From the NCBI RefSeq assembly GCF_003202235.1, contig NZ_MASU01000023.1, positions 1 through 64,000 of the forward strand: a stretch of 64,000 bases of DNA. Direction: 5' to 3'. Shown here in pieces: positions 7,327 through 17,294 of the stretch. The notes beneath the pieces were generated by a model, which did no database searches, was not told where the DNA came from, and was given only the letters and a program-made list of their open reading frames with translations. The stretch comes from Prauserella flavalba. Its GTDB lineage: Bacteria > Actinomycetota > Actinomycetes > Mycobacteriales > Pseudonocardiaceae. Positions within the stretch are counted from its first letter, which is position 1; each line of letters starts with the position of its first letter. The translations under genes and the position numbers were made by a program.

Positions 7327-7719
7327 ATGCGCAGGAACAGGCTCGTCGGCGTGGTCGTCGCGCTCGTGGTGGTGTGGATCGTGGTCGTCACCGTGCTGAT
7401 CTCGCGCGAGCCCGAGCCCGGCGCCGCCTCGCCCGCCGAGCTGCGCGACCGGCTCGAACGCGCGCTGACCGAGCGCGACGCCGACGAGTTCGGGCTGCTG
7501 CTCGGCGGGCCGGGCGGGCAGGCCGACGACTTCGCCCAGACCTACGTCGACGAGCTGCGCGGCACGACGGGCGTGAGCGTCTCCCTGCGGCCGGACGGCA
7601 CCGAGCCGCGCGTGGCGACGGTGAGCGGAACCCGCAGCGACGGCGAGCCGTTCACCTACGACCTCAGCGTGAGCGAGGCAGGCGGCCGCTGGCACGTCGA
7701 CCTCACCCCGCCCCTGTAG
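7327..7719 (+). CDS. single-pass membrane protein with extracytoplasmic domain, unknown function
   Basis: A 130-residue protein with one N-terminal helix (LVGVVVALVVVWIVVVTVLI) and a compact exported domain. Alternating strands at the end (RVATVSGTRSDGEPFTYDLS) suggest an NTF2/SnoaL-like fold, a weak guess. ATG 7327 is preferred over GTG 7309 because the TACCGT box lies between them. It ends 22 nt before the kinase cluster and probably belongs to the preceding envelope locus. Confidence 0.6.
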   Translation: MRRNRLVGVVVALVVVWIVVVTVLISREPEPGAASPAELRDRLERALTERDADEFGLLLGGPGGQADDFAQTYVDELRGTTGVSVSLRPDGTEPRVATVSGTRSDGEPFTYDLSVSEAGGRWHVDLTPPL

Positions 7720-7741
7720 CGGATCCGCACGAAAGGGTTCC

Positions 7742-9439
7742 ATGACCAAGATCTTCAACGACCCCGCCGACTTCGCGGGCGACATGCTTTCCGGGTTCGC
7801 GCGCGCGTTCCCCGGGTTCGTGCAGCGGGTGCCCGGCGGGGTGGTCAGGGCGACGCAGGCGGCACCGGGCAAGGTCGCGGTGGTGGTCGGCGGCGGCAGC
7901 GGGCACTACCCGGCGTTCGCGGGCTGGGTGGGCCCCGGTCTCGCCGACGCCGCCGTGGTGGGCTACGTCTTCTCCTCGCCGTCCACGCAGCAGGTGGTGG
8001 CCGTCGCCACGGCCGCCGACGCGGGCGCGGGCGTGGTGCTCAGCTACGGCAACTACGCGGGCGACGTGCTGAACTTCGAGGCCGCCCGCGCCCAGCTCAC
8101 CGACGCGGGCATCCCGGTGCGCTCGGTGGTGGTGAGCGACGACCTCGCGAGCGCGCCGCGGGACGAACGGTCCCTTCGCCGCGGCACGGCGGGCGATCTG
8201 GTGGTCGTGAAGATCGCCGGGGCCGCGGCCGAGGCCGGATACGACCTCGAGGGCGTGGTCCGCGTCGCCGAGCGCACCAACGCGGCGACGGTGTCGCTCG
8301 GGATCGCGTTCGAGGGTCCGACGCCGCCGGGTTCCCGTGGTCCGCTGTTCACCGTGCGCGACGGCCGGATGGGCGTCGGACTCGGCATCCACGGCGAGCC
8401 TGGCGTGTCGGAGGAACCGCTGCTCGGTGCGCGCGAGCTGGCCGGGCTGCTCGTCGGGCGGGTCCTCGCCGAGCGCCCCGACGGCGCGCGCAGGGCGACC
8501 GTGCTGCTCAACGGTATGGGCGCTACCAAGTACGAGGAACTGTTCGTGCTGTGGAACGAGGTCGTGCCCGCGCTGGAGGCCGAAGGGGTCGAGATCGTCG
8601 AGCCCGAGGTCGGCGAGCTGATCACAAGCCTCGACATGGCGGGGCTGTCGCTGACGATCACGTGGCTCGACGACGAACTGGAGGCGCTCTGGGGCGCGCC
8701 TGCGCAGAGCCCCGCCTACCGCAAGGGTCCCGCCGAGGCCGCCCCGCTCACGCCGAGGCCGGTGCCCGAGATCGCCGAGCGCGCGATCCCGGAGGCGAGC
8801 GAGGCGTCGCGGCACGTGGCGAAACTGGTGCACGCGGCGTTCGAGACCGCGGCGGCCGCGCTCGCCGAGGCCGAACCGGAGCTGGGCGAGCTCGACTCGG
8901 TGGCCGGCAACGGCGACCACGGGCGCGTCATGGCCAGGGGTGCCCGCGCGGCGGCGACCGCCGCGGGCAGGGCCGTCGAGGCAGGGGCGGGCACGGCCAC
9001 GACGCTGCTGTTCGCCGCCGACGCCTGGAGCGACCGGGCCGGCGGTTCCTCCGGTGCGCTGTGGGGTGCGGGACTGCGCGCGGCCGCGCGGGTGCTCTCC
9101 GACACCGACCCGCCCGCGAACGCCGTGCAGGCCGCGTGCCGTTCCGCGCTCGACGCCGTGACCGCCTACGGCAACGCGCGCGTCGGCGACAAGACCGTGG
9201 TGGACGCGTTCCTGCCGTTCACCGAGAGCCTCGAGGCCGACCTCGCCGCCGAGCTGCCGCTCGGCCCGGCGTGGGTCAACGCCTCGGCGGTCGCCGCGCG
9301 GGCGGCCGAGGCGACCGCGTCGCTGAGTCCCCGGCTCGGCAGAGCGCGCCCGCTGGCGGCGCGCAGCCTCGGCCACCGCGACCCGGGCGCGGTGTCGTTC
9401 GCCGTGGTGGTCACGGCGATCGCGGAGCACGTCGCATGA
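7742..9439 (+). CDS. DhaK-DhaL fusion kinase 1 (erythrulose or dihydroxyacetone kinase)
   Basis: A 565-residue single-chain ATP-dependent ketose kinase. The DhaK domain (1-330) carries [10 protein letters not shown] and the substrate-binding His217 in GIHGEPG. The DhaL domain (355-565) carries the Mg-ATP site LDSVAGNGDHG, where canonical DhaL has Asp the second position is Asn390, unlike kinase 2. GAAAGG precedes the ATG. The SorC regulator overlaps its stop, and the whole run to 16446 is co-directional. It may be the D-erythrulose or L-erythrulose kinase of the pathway; the two cannot be assigned from sequence alone. Confidence 0.9.
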   Translation: MTKIFNDPADFAGDMLSGFARAFPGFVQRVPGGVVRATQAAPGKVAVVVGGGSGHYPAFAGWVGPGLADAAVVGYVFSSPSTQQVVAVATAADAGAGVVLSYGNYAGDVLNFEAARAQLTDAGIPVRSVVVSDDLASAPRDERSLRRGTAGDLVVVKIAGAAAEAGYDLEGVVRVAERTNAATVSLGIAFEGPTPPGSRGPLFTVRDGRMGVGLGIHGEPGVSEEPLLGARELAGLLVGRVLAERPDGARRATVLLNGMGATKYEELFVLWNEVVPALEAEGVEIVEPEVGELITSLDMAGLSLTITWLDDELEALWGAPAQSPAYRKGPAEAAPLTPRPVPEIAERAIPEASEASRHVAKLVHAAFETAAAALAEAEPELGELDSVAGNGDHGRVMARGARAAATAAGRAVEAGAGTATTLLFAADAWSDRAGGSSGALWGAGLRAAARVLSDTDPPANAVQAACRSALDAVTAYGNARVGDKTVVDAFLPFTESLEADLAAELPLGPAWVNASAVAARAAEATASLSPRLGRARPLAARSLGHRDPGAVSFAVVVTAIAEHVA

Positions 9440-10383
9440 ACACCGCGCGCAGGGCCACGGTGCTGCGGGCTGCGGAGCTGTACTACGACGAGCACCTCAC
9501 GATGGAGGCGATCGCGCAGGAGCTGGGCTGCTCGCGCGCGACCGTGTCGCGCCTGGTCGGAGAGGCCCGCACCGCCGGGCTCGTGGAGATCACCGTGCAT
9601 CGCAGCGGCAGGGCGGCGAGCACGCTCGAACGCCTCATCGCGGAGCGCTACGGGGCGGAGGCCACGGTCGTCTCCCCTCCGGAGCGGGCGACCGAGGGCG
9701 AACGGCTGCTGCACGTCGCGACGCAGGCGGCGGCGAAGCTGCGGCTCACGCTCTCGCCCGACACCACGATCGCGGTCACGTGGGGCATCACCATCGCCAC
9801 GCTCGCCCGCAACCTCACACCCGGCGTGGTCCCCGGGCTGCAGGTGGTGCAGATGAGCGGGTCGGGCAACACGTTCTCCTCCGGCGCCGAGTACGCCTCG
9901 GGGGTGTTCGACCGCTTCGGCGCGGTACTCGGCGCCCGGGTGCACCATTTCCCGGTGCCCGCGTTCTTCGACTCGGCCGCAACGCGGGCGGCGCTGTGGG
10001 CTGAGCACAGCGTCCAGCGCATCGTTCGCCTGCAGCAGCGGGCCGACGTCGCGCTGTTCTCCGTCGGCGCGCTCGGCGGCGGCATCCCCGGCCACCTCTA
10101 CCGCGCCGGTTACCTCGATCGCGACGACCTGCGCTCGCTCACCGAGCAGGGCGTGGTGGGAGACCTCGGCACGGTGTTCCTCCACGCCACCGGGTCGAGT
10201 ACCGACCTCGCGATGAACCAGCGCTCGAGCGGCCTGCCGATCGAGACGCTGCGCCGCATCCCCCGCCGCCTGTGCGTCGCACTCGGCGAGGCCAAGGCCC
10301 CCGTGCTGCGGGCCGCGCTGCTCGCGGGCGCCGTCACCGAGCTGATCGTCGACACGAGGGCCGCCGAACCCCTCGTCGGCTGA
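9436..10383 (+). CDS. SorC/DeoR-type sugar-binding transcriptional regulator
   Basis: A 315-residue regulator: N-terminal HTH (MEAIAQELGCSRATVSRLVGEA, about residues 20-42) and a large SorC sugar-phosphate-binding domain (about 60-310) of ribose-5-phosphate-isomerase-like fold. ATGA overlap with kinase 1. SorC proteins sense phosphorylated pathway intermediates, so an erythrulose or erythrose phosphate is a reasonable effector. The likely target is the 146-bp gap after it, which holds a short palindrome before the transporter-led operon. Confidence 0.88.
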   Translation: MNTARRATVLRAAELYYDEHLTMEAIAQELGCSRATVSRLVGEARTAGLVEITVHRSGRAASTLERLIAERYGAEATVVSPPERATEGERLLHVATQAAAKLRLTLSPDTTIAVTWGITIATLARNLTPGVVPGLQVVQMSGSGNTFSSGAEYASGVFDRFGAVLGARVHHFPVPAFFDSAATRAALWAEHSVQRIVRLQQRADVALFSVGALGGGIPGHLYRAGYLDRDDLRSLTEQGVVGDLGTVFLHATGSSTDLAMNQRSSGLPIETLRRIPRRLCVALGEAKAPVLRAALLAGAVTELIVDTRAAEPLVG

Positions 10384-10419
10384 ACACATTCTCATCCGAG
10401 GCCGCTTCTGGATCGAAAC

Positions 10420-10435
10420 GGCTACCGAAATAGCC
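10420..10435. promoter_or_regulatory. short inverted repeat GGCTA-N6-TAGCC, candidate operator
   Basis: The only clear dyad in the gap between the regulator gene and the MFS gene. A TAGCAT hexamer (10489-10494) downstream could be the operon -10. Assignment to the SorC protein is inference. Confidence 0.3.
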
Positions 10436-10529
10436 CCGATAACTGCAACTCCGTTCACCGACACTGGGCCGTTCTGGTTACGCGTGCTTAGCATCGCCGC
10501 AATCTTCAGCGCGTGTCAGGAGTGTCGAC

Positions 10530-11879
10530 GTGGACGCCACCCAGCAGTCCCCCGTTGAGCGCTCGGCGATCAGAAAGGTCGCCGTGCGGCTCGTGCCCTT
10601 CGTGGCACTCATGTTCTTCATCAACTACCTCGACCGGACCGCGATCTCGTTCGCCGGCCCGAACGGGATGAACGACGACCTCGGCCTCACCGCCGCCCAG
10701 TACGGCTTCGCCTCCGGGGTGTTCTTCGTCGGCTACATCCTGCTTGAGGTGCCCAGCAACATCGCACTGCACCGCTTCGGTGCCCGCAAGTGGCTCGCGC
10801 GGATCATGGTGTCGTGGGGCATCGTCTCGCTGCTGTTCACCTGGGTGGACAGCGTCGGCGGCCTCTACACGCTGCGCCTGCTGCTCGGCATCGCCGAGGC
10901 CGGGTTCTTCCCCGGCGCGATCCTGTTCCTCTCGCTGTGGGTGCCCGCGCGGCACCGGAGCAAGATCCTCGCGCTGTTCTACCTCGCGCAACCGCTCACC
11001 ACGGTCATCGGCGCCCCGCTCGCGGGCGCGCTCATCGAGCAGCACGGCGTGTTCGGCCTCGAGGGCTGGCGCTTCATGTTCCTGTGTGTTTCGGTGCCCG
11101 CGATCCTGGTCGGCATCGCCACCTGGTTCTACCTCAGCGACCGGCCCGCCGACGCGAAGTGGCTGACCCAGGCCGAGAAGGACTGGCTCACCGCCGAGCT
11201 CGAGGGTGAGGCCAAGACCAAGACCGGATCCGGTTCGCACAAGGGCGGCGTGCTGGCCGCGCTGCGCAGCGGTCGCGTGTGGACGCTCGCGCTCATCTAC
11301 TTCGGCTTCATCTACGGCCTCTACGCACTCGCGTTCTTCCTGCCGACGATCATCAGCGGCTTCGAGGAGGACTTCGGCACCACGTTCACGGTGCTCGAGA
11401 AGGGCCTCATCACGGCGATCCCTTACGTGCCGGCGGCGATCGTGCTGTACCTGTGGTCGCGCGACGCGACCAGGCGCGGCCTGCAGACGTGGCACATCGC
11501 ACTGCCCGCGCTCGTCGGCGGCGTGAGCGTCCCGATCGCGCTGTTCATGGGTTCGCCCGCGGCGACGATCGTGGTCATCACCATCACGGCGTGCGCGATC
11601 TTCGCGGCACTGCCCAACTTCTGGACCGTGCCCGCGCAGTTCCTCACCGGCGCGGCCGCCGCCGTCGGCATCGCGCTCATCAACACCTTCGGCAACGTCG
11701 CCGGCTTCGCCGCCGGATACGTCACCGGGTTCCTCAACGACGCCACGGGCTCCTACGTCCTACCCATGTTCGTCGTCGGCGGGCTGATGGTGCTCTCCGC
11801 GGTGCTGATGGTGGCGCTGGCCAAGCGGGGCCGCGTGCAGACCGGCGACCCCGACGAGAAAGCGGTGACCAAGGCATGA
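10530..11879 (+). CDS. MFS transporter, anion:cation symporter (ACS) family
   Basis: A 449-residue 12-helix permease. The N terminus ([20 protein letters not shown], then [19 protein letters not shown]) is typical of ACS-family carriers for hexuronates, glucarate, tartrate and other sugar acids. AGGAG lies 8 nt before the GTG. It overlaps kinase 2 by 4 nt and heads the catabolic run, so it should import the pathway substrate. An organic anion such as apionate fits the downstream enzymes better than a neutral polyol. Confidence 0.9.
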
Positions 11880-13609
11880 CCAGGCTGTTCAACGACCCGG
11901 CCGAGTTCGCCGACGAGGTGCTCGACGGCTTCGTCGCGGCACACCGGCGGTGGGTCCGGCGCGTGCAGGGCGGCGTGGTGCGCAACACCGCCAAGACGCC
12001 GGGGCAGGTCGCGGTGCTCGTCGGTGGCGGTTCCGGCCACTACCCCGCGTTCACCGGGCTCGTCGGCCAGGGCCTCGCCCACGGCGCGGTGTCGGGCAAC
12101 ATCTTCGCCTCGCCCTCGGCGCAGCAGGCGTGCTCGGTCGCGAAGGCCGCCGAGAGCGGCGGCGGCGTGCTGCTGCTGTTCGGCAACTACGCGGGCGACG
12201 TGCTCCACTTCGGACACGCGGCGGAGATACTGACGCAGCAGGGCATTCCCACGAGGACGTTCGCGGTCACCGACGACGTGTCGAGCGCACCCGCCGACCA
12301 GGCCGCCAAGCGGCGTGGCGTCGCGGGCGACCTCACCGTGTTCAAGGCCGCCGCCGCGGCCGCCGAAGCGGGGCTCGGCCTCGACGAGGTGTACCGCGTC
12401 GCCGAGCGCGCCAACGACCGCACCCGCTCGCTCGGCGTCGCGTTCTCCGGCTGCACGCTGCCCGGCGCGGACGCGCCGCTGTTCACGGTCCCCGAGGGGA
12501 GGATGGCCGTGGGCATGGGCATCCACGGCGAGCCCGGCATCGACGAGGCCGACGTGCCGAGCGCCGACGGGCTGGCCGAGCTGTTCGTGAGCACACTGCT
12601 CGCCGACCTGCCCGCCGACCTCACCGACGTGCGCGGGCAGCGGGCGGGCGTGATCCTCAACGGGCTCGGCACCGTGAAGCACGAGGAGCTGTTCGTCGTC
12701 TACCGGCGCGTGGCGCAGTTGCTCGCCGAGGCGGGCGTCGAGGTGGTGGACCCCGAGGTCGGCGAGTTCGTCACGAGCTTCGACCTCGCGGGCGCCTCGC
12801 TCACCCTGTTCTGGCTGGACGAGGAGCTGGAGCGGTACTGGACGGCCCCCGCCGACGCGCCCGCGTTCCGCAAGGGCTCGCTCACCCCGGCGCCGCCCGC
12901 GCCCGAGGACCTCGCCGTGGACTCGGCCGAACAGACCGTGCCCGAGGCGAGCGAGGAGTCCCGCGAGGCGGCAGGCGTCGTACTCACCGCGCTGGAGGCC
13001 GTGCGCAAGGTGATCGACGGCAACGCCGACGAGCTGGGCCGGATCGACGCGGTCGCCGGCGACGGCGACCACGGCATCGGCATGCAGCGCGGCGCGGTCG
13101 CCGCCGTCGACGCCGCGCGGGAGGCGCTGCGGCTCGGCGCCGGTGCGGGCACGCTGCTCGCGCTCGCGGGCGACGCGTGGGCCGACAAGGCGGGCGGCAC
13201 GTCCGGCGCACTGTGGGGCCTGCTGCTGCGCAGCATCGCGAACACGTTGGGGGACAAGGGGAAGCCCACCGCCGCGACCGTGAGCCAGGGGGTCGCGGCC
13301 GGGCTGGAGAGCGTGCTCAAGGTCGGCGGGGCGAAGGTCGGCGACAAGACGATGGTCGACGTGCTGGTGCCCTTCGCCGAGGCGCTCGCGGCCGGGGTCG
13401 GCGAGTCGAGGGGGCTCGCCGAGGCGTGGGGGCACGCGGCCGAGCAGGCCGACGCCGCCGCGAAGGCGACCGCGGACCTGGTGCCGAGGATCGGCAGGGC
13501 CAGGCCACTCGCCGAGAAGAGCGTGGGAACGCCCGATGCGGGCGCGGTGTCGCTGGCGCTCATCGCCGGCGTCGTGCACGGCGTGCTCGCCGACAGGAAA
13601 GGTGTGTGA
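11876..13609 (+). CDS. DhaK-DhaL fusion kinase 2 (L-erythrulose kinase candidate)
   Basis: A 577-residue paralogue of kinase 1 with the same domain order. Substrate His217 lies in GIHGEPG and the complete DhaL metal motif [11 protein letters not shown] has Asp391, Asp396 and Asp398. It would phosphorylate L-erythrulose to L-erythrulose 1-phosphate. It overlaps the transporter stop (ATGA) and the next gene (TGATG), so it is inside the operon proper, which makes it the better LerK candidate. Dihydroxyacetone kinase is the conservative alternative. Confidence 0.9.
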
Positions 13610-14082
13610 TGACGGCTCAGAAGTGGCGCATCGTGGTCGGGTCGGACGACGCCGGCTTCGACTACAAGGAGGCGCTCAAGGCGGACCTGGAGGCGAGCGA
13701 GCTCGTCGAGTCCGTTGTGGACGTCGGGGTGGACGCGGAGGGGCACACCCCGTACCCGACCGTCGCGGTCACCGCGGCCGAGCTGATCGCCAAGGGCGAG
13801 GCCGACCGCGCGCTGCTCGTGTGCGGCACGGGCCTCGGCGTGGCGATCTCGGCCAACAAGGTGCCCGGCATCCGCGCCGTCACCGCCCACGACAGCTTCT
13901 CCGTCGAGCGCTCCGTGCTGAGCAACAACGCGCAGGTGCTCACCTTCGGACAGCGCGTGATCGGCCTCGAACTGGCCCGCAGGCTCGCCCGCGAGTGGCT
14001 CACCTACACCTTCGACGAGAACTCTCCGTCGGCGAAGAAGGTGCAAGTGCTCACGGACTACGAGAGCGTGGGTTCGTGCTGA
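13609..14082 (+). CDS. RpiB/LacAB-family sugar-phosphate isomerase (EryI-like)
   Basis: A 157-residue isomerase with N-terminal [14 protein letters not shown] and the catalytic loop [22 protein letters not shown]. In erythritol, threitol and apionate routes a member of this family (EryI) interconverts D-erythrulose 4-phosphate and D-erythrose 4-phosphate; canonical RpiB acts on ribose 5-phosphate. AGGAAAGG precedes the ATG, which overlaps the kinase stop. Context favours the tetrose role. Confidence 0.9.
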
Positions 14083-14804
14083 CCCTGGGCATCAGCCTGA
14101 AGCTGTACTTCTCCCACGCCAGGACACTGGCGTGGAGCAGGGACGTGGCCGCGCTCGCCTCGCACGAGGCGATCGCGGGGGGGCACGCCGAGCTGTTCGT
14201 GCTCCCCTCGTTCCCGAGCATCCCGGCCGTGACCGAGATCTTCGCGGGCACGCCGGTGCGGGTGGGCGCGCAGGACCTGTGCGCCGACGACAGCGGCGCG
14301 TTCACCGGCGAGGTGGGCGGGCCGCTGCTGCGCGAGCTGGGCTGCGCCTACGCCGAGGTGGGCCACGCCGAACGGCGGCGTCTCTACGGCGAGGACGACG
14401 CGACCGTCGCCCGCAAGACCGCGGCGGCACTGCGCAACGACCTGGTGCCGGTGCTGTGCGTCGGCGAACCCGACCGGGTGCCCTCGGCCGAGGCAGCCGA
14501 CCGCTGCGTCGCCGAGGTGGCATCCGCGCTCGGCGTCTCCTCGGGCCCCGTGGTGGTCGCCTACGAGCCGCACTGGGCGATCGGCGCCGCGCGGCCCGCG
14601 CCCGAGTCGCACATCGCCGAGGTGTGCGGCACGCTCAAGGACCGCCTCGGCGTCCGCGTGATCTACGGCGGCAGTGCCGGGCCGGGCCTGCTGACCCGGC
14701 TCGGCACCTCGGTCGGCGGGCTGTTCCTCGGCCGGTTCGCGCACGACCCCGCCGCCGTCGGGAAGATCCTGGACGAGGCGCTGGCACTGGCGAAGGGATC
14801 CTGA
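14076..14804 (+). CDS. triosephosphate-isomerase-like enzyme (EryH-like)
   Basis: A 242-residue TIM-barrel isomerase. TPI catalytic residues are present: Lys in GISLKLYF, electrophile His in EVGHAERR, base Glu in [10 protein letters not shown]. The usual Asn-x-Lys of glycolytic TPI is Ser-Leu-Lys here, consistent with a paralogue for L-erythrulose 1-phosphate to D-erythrulose 4-phosphate rather than glycolysis. GTG 14076 overlaps the RpiB-like stop by 7 nt. It sits between the kinase/RpiB pair and the decarboxylase-like gene. Confidence 0.88.
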
Positions 14805-15601
14805 TGGCGATCGGACTGAGCACGTACGCGTTCTTCTGGCGCATCTCCGACCGCGCCGAGAAACCGCTGACGCTCACGCGGATGCTGGAGCAGACCAGGG
14901 AGCTCGGCGCGGACGTCTTCCAGATCTGCGACCACCCACCGGTCGAGTCACTGTCCACAACGGAGCTGCGCGAGCTGCGGTCCGTGGCCGGCGACCTCGG
15001 GGTGACCCTTGAACTCGGCACGCGGGGCGTGCGGCCGGAGCACCTGAAGCGCTACCTCGACCTCGCCGAGGCGCTCGACGTGACGCTCGTGCGCAGCATG
15101 CTGTACTCCGCCGCCGACCGGCCCACGCTCGCCGAGGCCACCGAACGGCTCCGCGAGGCCGTGCCCGGCTACGCCGAGCGCGGCGTGACGCTCGCGCTGG
15201 AGACCTACGAGCAGGTGGCGTCGGCCGACCTCGTCGACGTCGTGGAGGCCGTCGGCAGCGACCACCTCGGCATCTGCCTCGACCCGGCCAACTGCGTGGC
15301 GAACCTCGAGCACCCGAGGCAGGTCGTGGAGACCACCGCCCGGCACGTGGCCAACCTCCACGTCAAGGACTTCGACTTCGCCCGCCAGGCGGGCTGGGTC
15401 GGATTCACGCTCTCCGGCTGCAGGCTCGGCGAGGGGCGCCTCGACTACGGCGCCATGATCGAGCGGGTCAGACCCGCCGAGAAGAACATCAACCAGATCG
15501 TGGAGCACTGGCTTCCGCTGCAGGACGACTTCGAGACCACCTGCAGGCTGGAGGACGAGTGGACGCGGCACAGTGTGGAATTCCTAAGGAGCAACTCATG
15601 A
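14804..15601 (+). CDS. xylose-isomerase-like TIM barrel enzyme (OiaC-like decarboxylase candidate)
   Basis: A 265-residue AP-endonuclease-2/xylose-isomerase-like TIM barrel. Metal-site style residues appear in LALETYE, LGICLDPAN and NLHVKDFDF. Known activities in the family include isomerases, epimerases and 3-oxo-isoapionate decarboxylase (OiaC). With an ApnO-like gene next door (ATGA overlap) and erythrulose kinases upstream, OiaC is the best inference. A hydroxypyruvate-isomerase-like role is the alternative. Confidence 0.75.
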   Translation: MAIGLSTYAFFWRISDRAEKPLTLTRMLEQTRELGADVFQICDHPPVESLSTTELRELRSVAGDLGVTLELGTRGVRPEHLKRYLDLAEALDVTLVRSMLYSAADRPTLAEATERLREAVPGYAERGVTLALETYEQVASADLVDVVEAVGSDHLGICLDPANCVANLEHPRQVVETTARHVANLHVKDFDFARQAGWVGFTLSGCRLGEGRLDYGAMIERVRPAEKNINQIVEHWLPLQDDFETTCRLEDEWTRHSVEFLRSNS

Positions 15602-16446
15602 CCACGGTCACCGTCGTCGGCGCGGGCGGCAAGATGGGCCAGCGCGTCTCCAACAACCTCGCGAAGAGCGACTACCGCGTCCTCTACAGCGAGAACTCGC
15701 CCAACGGGCGGGAACTGCTGGCGAGCCAGGGCCGCGAGGTGTCCGACTCGGCCGAGGCCGCGCGCGAGAGCGACGTCGTGATCCTCGCCGTGCCGGACGT
15801 CGTGCTCGGCAAGGTGTCCGAGGCGCTCGTGCCGGAGCTGAAGCCGGGCGCGATCGTGCTGACCCTCGACCCGGCGGCGGCGTACGCGGGCCTGCTGCAC
15901 AAGCGCGACGACATCGAGTACGCCGTGGCGCACCCGTGCCACCCCTCGGTGTTCCTGGAGCGCACCACCAAGGAGGAGTACGCCGACACCTTCGGCGGAA
16001 TCGCGGCACCGCAGGAGGTCGTCGCCGCGTTCGAGTCGGACAACGAGACCGCACGCAAGCTCGCCGACGACGTCATCCGCGTGATGTACGCACCCGTCGT
16101 GGACGTCCACTGGGTGACCGTGAAGCAGCTCGCGGTCCTGGAGCCGACGCTCGTGGAGACGGTCGCCTGCATGGTGGGCTCGCTGCTCAACGAGGCACTG
16201 CACGAGACCGTGCACACCGTCGGCGTCCCCGAGTCCGCCGCGCGCGCCATGCTGCTCGGCCACGTGCAGGTGGCGCTCACCAACACGTTGCGCGGGTCCA
16301 ACCCGTTCTCCGACGCGTGCCTCATCGCGATGGACTACGGGCGCGAGACGATCGTGAAGGACGACTGGAAGAAGATCTTCGACGACCGCGAGCTCGACAA
16401 GGTGATCGCGCGGATGCTGAAGATCGACGCGGTGAAGCGCTCCTGA
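15598..16446 (+). CDS. NAD-dependent dehydrogenase with PGDH_C domain (ApnO-like D-apionate oxidoisomerase)
   Basis: A 282-residue protein: Rossmann domain starting VTVVGAGGKMGQRV and an all-helical C-terminal domain of the phosphogluconate-dehydrogenase-C type (HPCHPSVFLER, ending DACLIAMDYGRETIVKDDWK). D-apionate oxidoisomerases have this architecture and make 3-oxo-isoapionate. A strong AAGGAG lies 6 nt before the ATG, which overlaps the preceding stop. Last gene of the overlapping run. The specific substrate is inferred from context. Confidence 0.78.
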   Translation: MTTVTVVGAGGKMGQRVSNNLAKSDYRVLYSENSPNGRELLASQGREVSDSAEAARESDVVILAVPDVVLGKVSEALVPELKPGAIVLTLDPAAAYAGLLHKRDDIEYAVAHPCHPSVFLERTTKEEYADTFGGIAAPQEVVAAFESDNETARKLADDVIRVMYAPVVDVHWVTVKQLAVLEPTLVETVACMVGSLLNEALHETVHTVGVPESAARAMLLGHVQVALTNTLRGSNPFSDACLIAMDYGRETIVKDDWKKIFDDRELDKVIARMLKIDAVKRS

Positions 16447-16460
16447 CCCACAATGGGGCC

Positions 16461-17294
16461 ATGCGCTATCTCCGGCTCGGCCCCGGCGACCGGCTGCCCG
16501 TCCTCGGTCAGGGCACCTGGCACATGGGTGAACGCGGACGTGACCGGAAGGCCGAGGTCGAGGCCCTGCGACTGGGTCTCGACCTCGGCGTTTCCCTGAT
16601 CGACACCGCGGAGATGTACGGCGACGGCGGCGCCGAGGAGGTCGTCGGCGAAGCGATCGCGGGCCGCCGCGACGAGACGTTCCTGGTCAGCAAGGTCCTG
16701 CCGCACAACGCGAGCCTGCGCGGCACGATCGCGGCGTGCGAGCGGAGCCTTCGCCGCCTCGGCACCGACCGGCTCGACCTGTACCTGCTGCACTGGCGCG
16801 GCGGGCACCCGCTGGCGGAGACCCTGGAGGCGCTGGACCGGCTGCGCACCGACGGCAAGATCCGGCACTTCGGGGTCAGCAACTTCGACCGCGACGACCT
16901 GCGCGAGACGTGGCGGACGCCGTGCGGCGAGCACGTGGTGACCGACCAGGTGCTCTACAACCTCACGCGGCGCGGCCCCGAGTTCGACCTGCTGCCGTGG
17001 TGCCGGGAGCGCGGGGTGCCGGTGATGGCGTACTCGCCGATCGAGCAGGGCAGGCTGCTGCGTGACCGCGTGCTCGCCGAGGTCGCGCAGCGGCACGGCG
17101 TGACGCCCGCGCAGCTCGCGATCGCGTGGGTGCTCCACCAGCCGGGGGTGTGCGCGATCCCGAAGGCGGCGACGCGCGAGCACGTGGAACAGAACGCCGC
17201 GGCCCTGGAGGTGACCCTCACGCCGGAGGACCTCTCGGCCCTCGACACCCGCTTCCCACCCCCAAGCCGCCCGGAACCCCTTGAAATGCTCTGA
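16461..17294 (+). CDS. aldo/keto reductase
   Basis: A 277-residue NADPH-dependent (beta/alpha)8 oxidoreductase. The Asp-Tyr-Lys-His tetrad is seen in IDTAEMYGDGG, LVSKVLP and LLHWRG; the cofactor-site IPKAATREH segment is near the end. It starts 14 nt after the apionate-type operon behind a CACAAT box (6-nt gap), so it may have its own leaderless promoter. Its substrate is unknown; membership in the sugar-acid pathway is possible but unproven. Ends just before a long hairpin. Confidence 0.9.
   Translation: MRYLRLGPGDRLPVLGQGTWHMGERGRDRKAEVEALRLGLDLGVSLIDTAEMYGDGGAEEVVGEAIAGRRDETFLVSKVLPHNASLRGTIAACERSLRRLGTDRLDLYLLHWRGGHPLAETLEALDRLRTDGKIRHFGVSNFDRDDLRETWRTPCGEHVVTDQVLYNLTRRGPEFDLLPWCRERGVPVMAYSPIEQGRLLRDRVLAEVAQRHGVTPAQLAIAWVLHQPGVCAIPKAATREHVEQNAAALEVTLTPEDLSALDTRFPPPSRPEPLEML

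Follow-up and report, generated by a model that had tools for sequence, protein, structure and literature searches.

Which compound is broken down by the products of the eight + strand genes at positions 7742-16446 of the Prauserella flavalba contig NZ_MASU01000023.1, and how might the genes be controlled? The window, meaning the whole stretch of DNA that was analysed here, comprises positions 1-64,000 of this contig, and a preliminary description of it had proposed that the eight genes form a D-apionate catabolic cluster. From the protein families, conservation, gene context and predicted folds, we consider it very probable that this cluster is a D-apionate catabolic operon in a Prauserella species. 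The proposal was supported by a closely kept gene pair in relatives, by neighbours resembling the lactonase ApnL or apiose dehydrogenase, and by an importer and a dehydrogenase held in common with clusters of the OiaK type. The kind of pathway is already known; the window adds a member from the actinobacteria, which carries an unexpected additional kinase-like gene. The features of the locus are as follows.

7742-9439, + strand: DhaKL1, DhaK-DhaL kinase paralogue, possible sensor (Pfam Dak1 and Dak2)
9436-10383, + strand: SorC-type sugar-binding regulator (Pfam Sugar-bind, 178 bits)
10384-10529, no strand: non-coding 146-nt gap, partly conserved in four Prauserella
10530-11879, + strand: MFS importer of the anion:cation symporter type, GTG start; proposed D-apionate importer (MFS_1, 147 bits)
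11876-13609, + strand: DhaKL2, DhaK-DhaL kinase; proposed L-erythrulose kinase, LerK role (Dak1 and Dak2)
13609-14082, + strand: RpiB-like isomerase; proposed D-erythrulose 4-phosphate isomerase, EryI role (LacAB_rpiB, 148 bits)
14076-14804, + strand: TPI-like isomerase, GTG start; proposed L-erythrulose 1-phosphate isomerase, EryH role (TIM, 159 bits)
14804-15601, + strand: xylose-isomerase-like TIM barrel; proposed 3-oxo-isoapionate decarboxylase, OiaC role (AP_endonuc_2, 79 bits)
15598-16446, + strand: PGDH_C dehydrogenase; proposed D-apionate oxidoisomerase, ApnO role (PGDH_C, 211 bits)

The protein families named in the preliminary description are confirmed by Pfam and NCBIfam; for the two kinases, the Pfam scores are 351 and 366 bits for Dak1 and 132 and 156 bits for Dak2. 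Its co-directional layout with overlaps of mostly 1-7 nt also stands, since six of the seven junctions overlap (in 5' to 3' order, an overlap of 4 nt, the gap of 146 nt, and overlaps of 4, 1, 7, 1 and 4 nt). At the family level, all five pathway roles and the organic-acid importer that it listed are present.

D-apionate is reportedly degraded by way of the 3-oxo-isoapionate decarboxylase OiaC, as Carter et al. are said to have described in 2018 (Nat Chem Biol 14:696), and the steps proposed here follow that account. The MFS protein would import D-apionate, which the PGDH_C enzyme would oxidise while moving its hydroxymethyl group, giving 3-oxo-isoapionate, and the TIM-barrel enzyme would decarboxylate this product to L-erythrulose. 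DhaKL2 would then form L-erythrulose 1-phosphate, the TPI-like enzyme would convert it to D-erythrulose 4-phosphate, and the RpiB-like enzyme would yield D-erythrose 4-phosphate, which would enter the pentose phosphate pathway. Expression would be regulated by SorC, possibly together with DhaKL1. As in the OiaC route of Carter et al., genes of the ApnO, OiaC, LerK, EryH and EryI families and an organic-acid importer share one operon; the window differs in its actinobacterial host, in having no ApnL or apiose dehydrogenase gene in the operon and in the extra DhaKL1 beside SorC. The lower half of the pathway, with DhaKL, TPI-like and RpiB-like enzymes, is also described in PMC10733421, and we found no literature on actinobacterial apiose catabolism in the sources as far as they were accessible.

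The PGDH_C protein, encoded by the single PGDH_C gene of the genome, scores 211 bits against PF16896 (cut-off 25), which places it with ApnO at the family level. It is 43.6% identical to PDB entry 5t57, whose title is semialdehyde dehydrogenase NAD-binding protein, and 43-44% identical to the PGDH_C enzymes associated with OiaK. The 270 aligned residues of 5t57 are identical to the product of a gene on plasmid pBB1 of Cupriavidus necator N-1 (L176, 8001-8813) that stands beside OiaK and RuBisCO-like genes; therefore, 5t57 is probably an ApnO structure. The predicted model of the window protein (predicted local distance difference test score, pLDDT, of 88.7, with a less confident segment around residue 118) matches 5t57 with a template modelling (TM) score of 0.92 and 3c24 with 0.90; the other matches listed, at TM 0.63-0.76, are to ketol-acid reductoisomerases and to BurG, a relative of theirs. 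Ketol-acid reductoisomerases combine a redox reaction with the migration of a carbon group, as would be expected of an oxidoisomerase. The structural check of the two key enzymes supported the preliminary description in the case of the PGDH_C enzyme, while the fold of the TIM barrel did not discriminate. The AlphaFold2 model of the TIM-barrel protein (pLDDT 95.8) resembles sugar isomerases and epimerases at 13-19% identity among the 50 matches listed, so that the fold alone cannot separate a decarboxylase from an isomerase, and its sequence has only weak matches in the PDB. E133, D160, H186 and E234 of this protein are invariant in 34 sequences, and we take them to correspond to the metal ligands of the fold. 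With that assignment, the metal site is intact in a TIM barrel that adjoins the ApnO candidate, as expected of OiaC.

Homologues of the PGDH_C gene also occur in clusters that use OiaK and a RuBisCO-like protein in place of OiaC and LerK (L006, L007 and L176). In Paraburkholderia sprentiae (L006), the PGDH_C gene is next to OiaK (822 bits, cut-off 700), and the RuBisCO-like protein scores 444 bits, below the OiaX cut-off of 700. In Rhizobium N731 (L007), the PGDH_C gene is accompanied by OiaX (785.7 bits, cut-off 700) and ApnL (1055.7 bits, cut-off 750), with a kinase at 474 bits, below the OiaK cut-off of 700; this cluster has an ABC transporter and, like the window, TPI-like and RpiB-like genes. 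A strain with an OiaK/OiaX-type cluster grows on D-apiose, according to PMC11747546. The window genome itself gave no match to the OiaX profile, and its best OiaK match, on another contig, reaches 100.6 bits against the cut-off of 700.

The importer, assigned by NCBIfam to an organic-acid MFS family of the anion:cation symporter type, is 69-70% identical to the importers of the OiaK-type clusters of P. sprentiae and C. necator N-1. In fact, the tblastn counterparts of the window genes in these two clusters are the MFS importer and the PGDH_C gene only. Since these are the sole common genes, both routes should take up the very acid on which their PGDH_C enzyme acts. Importers at 60-80% identity were found in 12 plasmid records, with the next listed matches below 46%. 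Two of the 12 have the OiaC route (Pantoea and Erwinia), and four have PGDH_C together with OiaK: C. necator and two Caballeronia have a RuBisCO-like gene between the two, and P. sprentiae has one several kb away. As a control, six of the 801 records with importers below 60% identity were inspected; none has a PGDH_C neighbour, and their annotated neighbours include tartrate and L-threonate genes. The link between the importer and the pathway is real, but it is not universal, as the remaining six of the 12 records discussed below illustrate.

To what extent the gene set is kept together was addressed with the best 80 of 335 relatives from a scan of genome contigs with the TIM-barrel protein. 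In these 80 loci, adjacency and full-length genes were counted from open reading frames of matches covering at least 80% of the query, and other neighbours from tblastn matches covering at least 40%; contigs that break off within the cluster (L052, L068, L104, L107 and L138, for example) lower the gene counts. The PGDH_C gene lies directly downstream of the TIM-barrel gene in 76 of the 80, from 8 nt overlapping to 74 nt apart. Sixty loci have DhaKL2, TPI, RpiB and PGDH_C all at full length, and 63 have a full-length MFS gene, each at least 68% identical to that of the window. The closest named loci are those of Prauserella endophytica and P. cavernicola, with TIM-barrel proteins at 95% and 90%. 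A further 17 actinobacterial loci, several from genomes already represented in the 80, have the TIM-barrel and PGDH_C genes together in every case, DhaKL2 and TPI in 16 each, and RpiB and MFS in 15 each (the contig of L052 is cut). Because the set recurs in these 17 loci and in named loci of two phyla, the cluster is more than a chance grouping.

The relatives span two phyla, and many of the 80 loci come from Streptomyces and Erwiniaceae. By sequence comparison, the clade to which the TIM-barrel protein belongs has sharp limits: a homologue of at least 56% identity is present in 15 of 297 genomes of the family, other matches being at most 39%, and in 4 of 396 genomes of the phylum (the window's own genome is included in both counts), whereas in the plasmid collection two records reach 57-58% and the next 38.5%. 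A tree of 85 TIM-barrel sequences requires two changes of phylum on its supported branches; this is compatible with, though no proof of, some exchange between the Actinomycetota and the Pseudomonadota. The plasmids of Pantoea sp. At-9b (L004) and Erwinia sp. E602 (L005) resemble the window in having MFS, DhaKL, TPI, TIM-barrel, PGDH_C, SorC and rpiB genes, with 57-58% and 65-67% identity for the two key enzymes. They differ in that rpiB is divergent, SorC comes last and is 28-30% identical, and DhaKL1 is absent.

ApnL-like genes, counted as matches above 80 bits, are found in the fetched stretch of 11 of the 80 loci, four of them actinobacterial (L125, L126, L140 and L143). Six loci contain an oxidoreductase that is 50-54% identical to the product of a Rhizobium gene taken here to encode apiose dehydrogenase. 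The presence of both within the clade argues against the alternative that a different sugar acid, branched or related, is the target of the same chemistry, with the OiaC-type clade having a substrate of its own. The importer, at 69-70% identity to those of two OiaK-type clusters, speaks in the same direction. What favours such a different acid is that the window PGDH_C enzyme is only 43-44% identical to the OiaK-associated enzymes, that half of the plasmid records with a close MFS gene have no pathway genes nearby, and that the ApnL-like genes of the clade fall below the cut-off while the window genome has no ApnL match. Weighing these points, we regard another sugar acid as improbable.

The same and several other observations nevertheless weigh against D-apionate as the substrate. 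Model scores were obtained for the ApnL-like proteins of seven of the 11 loci, and all are below the ApnL cut-off, at 190-395 against 750 bits. A search of the window genome for the ApnL lactonase, and thus for a full D-apiose pathway, gave no match, and those of P. endophytica and P. cavernicola were negative as well, while the control record L007 was matched at 1055.5 bits. Among the close-importer records, six of 12, from five Rhizobium strains (L179-L184, with importers 71-72% identical to that of the window), contain no queried pathway gene within ~8 kb; the neighbours in L182 resemble amino-acid catabolism genes (for example, an ornithine cyclodeaminase and a histidine-utilisation repressor), and R. 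lusitanum carries a PGDH_C homologue elsewhere on the same plasmid. The adjacency of the key pair also has exceptions: PGDH_C is upstream in L133, L111 has only a distant type (43%) that is not adjacent, and L097 and L109 have no PGDH_C gene within the fetched stretch. The NCBIfam search of the window proteins returned no ApnO or OiaC family, and the ApnO, OiaC and LerK roles are assigned at the level of families rather than against characterised sequences. Finally, the RpiB-like protein passes TIGR02133, ribose-5-phosphate isomerase (205.8 against 168.2 bits), and misses the D-erythrulose-4-phosphate isomerase (DerI) equivalog NF051858 (146.7 against 240 bits), which the Rhizobium N731 homologue passes at 255.7 bits.

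Two groups of relatives depart from the usual arrangement. The OiaC homologues of L097, L109 and L111 (57-59%) lie outside the usual cluster with a GntR-like regulator behind them, and in L097 and L111, Fe-ADH and chromate-transporter-like genes are upstream. Eight Halomonadaceae loci have OiaC-PGDH_C clusters (L084, L086, L099, L110, L117, L119, L130 and L132); seven of them contain ApnL-like and/or apiose-dehydrogenase-like genes, and none has a DhaKL, TPI or RpiB match within the fetched stretch. The ApnL-like lactonase is in one long frame in L084, and it is split into two adjacent frames overlapping by 4-14 nt in L099 (6283-8429), L110 (6287-8427), L130 (7890-9817) and L132 (6513-8457), which is possibly a natural two-subunit form.

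For the lower half of the pathway, DhaKL2 scores 742 bits against 492 for NF011049, in agreement at the family level with an L-erythrulose kinase of the DhaKL type, and the GDGDHG motif of its DhaL domain is kept in 79 of 79 DhaKL2 sequences, with some genomes counted twice. The genome contains two TIM and two RpiB-family genes, so that the cluster copies are dedicated ones beside separate genes. The TPI-like gene matches PDB entry 11ef, 'L-erythrulose-1-phosphate isomerase', but five distinct TPI sequences score higher, and the match consequently does not discriminate its function. The tetritol pathways of Mycolicibacterium smegmatis use the same lower-pathway kinase and isomerase families and start from tetritols, not from a sugar acid. 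These families raise the alternative that the operon serves L-erythrulose or tetritols, in which case the TIM barrel would be an isomerase and the PGDH_C enzyme a reductase, both supplying the kinase. DhaKL, TPI-like and RpiB-like enzymes do make up the lower tetritol pathway in PMC10733421 and PMC12780249, the latter of which mentions the M. smegmatis pathway, and the TIM-barrel model resembles sugar isomerases and epimerases. However, the operon has no polyol dehydrogenase, its importer is of an organic-acid family, and the relatives of its PGDH_C enzyme stand with OiaK, OiaX and ApnL, which makes a tetritol operon very hard to credit.

The probable D-apionate operon includes one gene that departs from the known clusters. 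The preliminary description had counted two DhaK-DhaL kinases; both family assignments hold, but only DhaKL2 belongs to the conserved cluster. DhaKL1, a paralogue from Prauserella that is 53% identical to DhaKL2, has a changed metal site, and the LerK of the pathway may be another protein. Copies at 92-98% identity were found in Prauserella only (4 of 297 genomes searched, with four candidates scored per genome), and they occupy the same place in the clusters of the three other Prauserella. All four DhaKL1 proteins differ from 88 other DhaKL proteins at 19 positions where 97% or more of the latter share one residue. One of these proteins' shared residues, Asn390, is present in 4 of 4 against Asp in 88 of 88, and it aligns to the first Asp of GDADHG in the DhaL structures 2btd and 3pnl; the replaced Asp is, we assume, one of the three DhaL Asp residues that hold magnesium. 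The substrate His motif GIHGEPG is retained. The ratio of nonsynonymous to synonymous substitution rates (dN/dS) of DhaKL1 is 0.05-0.10, below the 0.17-0.23 of DhaKL2 in all three comparisons; among the eight genes it is the lowest in P. endophytica and the second lowest in G409 (after RpiB) and in P. cavernicola (after SorC). This low ratio indicates that DhaKL1 is not decaying. A third DhaK of the genome (L001) was excluded as a part of the cluster, as its DhaK and DhaL matches are in separate frames at 38-40% identity.

As judged from its sequence, DhaKL1 may be either a kinase with a new substrate or a sensor. The chances appear evenly balanced that it is an active kinase on another substrate, such as D-erythrulose or dihydroxyacetone: the retained GIHGEPG motif, the strong constraint and the location of several of the 19 changed positions in the DhaK half are in keeping with this, while Asn390, in place of the presumed magnesium ligand, is at odds with it. 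The pairing with SorC makes a sensor attractive. We tentatively suggest, as a rather doubtful idea, that DhaKL1 could be a kinase-derived sensor that binds L-erythrulose through the active-site His without phosphorylating it and works with SorC to switch on the six-gene operon.

The layout of the locus bears on this regulation. Because the 146-nt gap separates the SorC and MFS genes, there are likely two units, DhaKL1-SorC and a six-gene unit from MFS to PGDH_C, and the promoter of the latter likely lies in the gap. A sigma70-type promoter scan of 7600-16600 gave no match, and no palindromic operator was found in the gap of the window or of L067, with one imperfect pair in L066. An aldo-keto reductase gene (16461-17294) follows 14 nt past the operon; it has a match at that place in L049 and L051 but not in L050, the third of the other Prauserella loci, and was not counted as a ninth gene.

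In summary, for a gene set that annotation describes in generic terms (kinase, isomerase, dehydrogenase) and that is found again in Streptomyces, Pseudonocardiaceae and Erwiniaceae, the D-apionate assignment provides a function open to testing, and it would tie an unnamed importer and the generically titled PDB entry 5t57 to D-apionate use. D-apionate itself may be a nutrient for organisms that have no ApnL match. With the altered DhaKL1 next to SorC, a specific idea about regulation can be tested; if it is true, the operon would sense an intermediate of its own pathway through a diverged copy of its own kinase.

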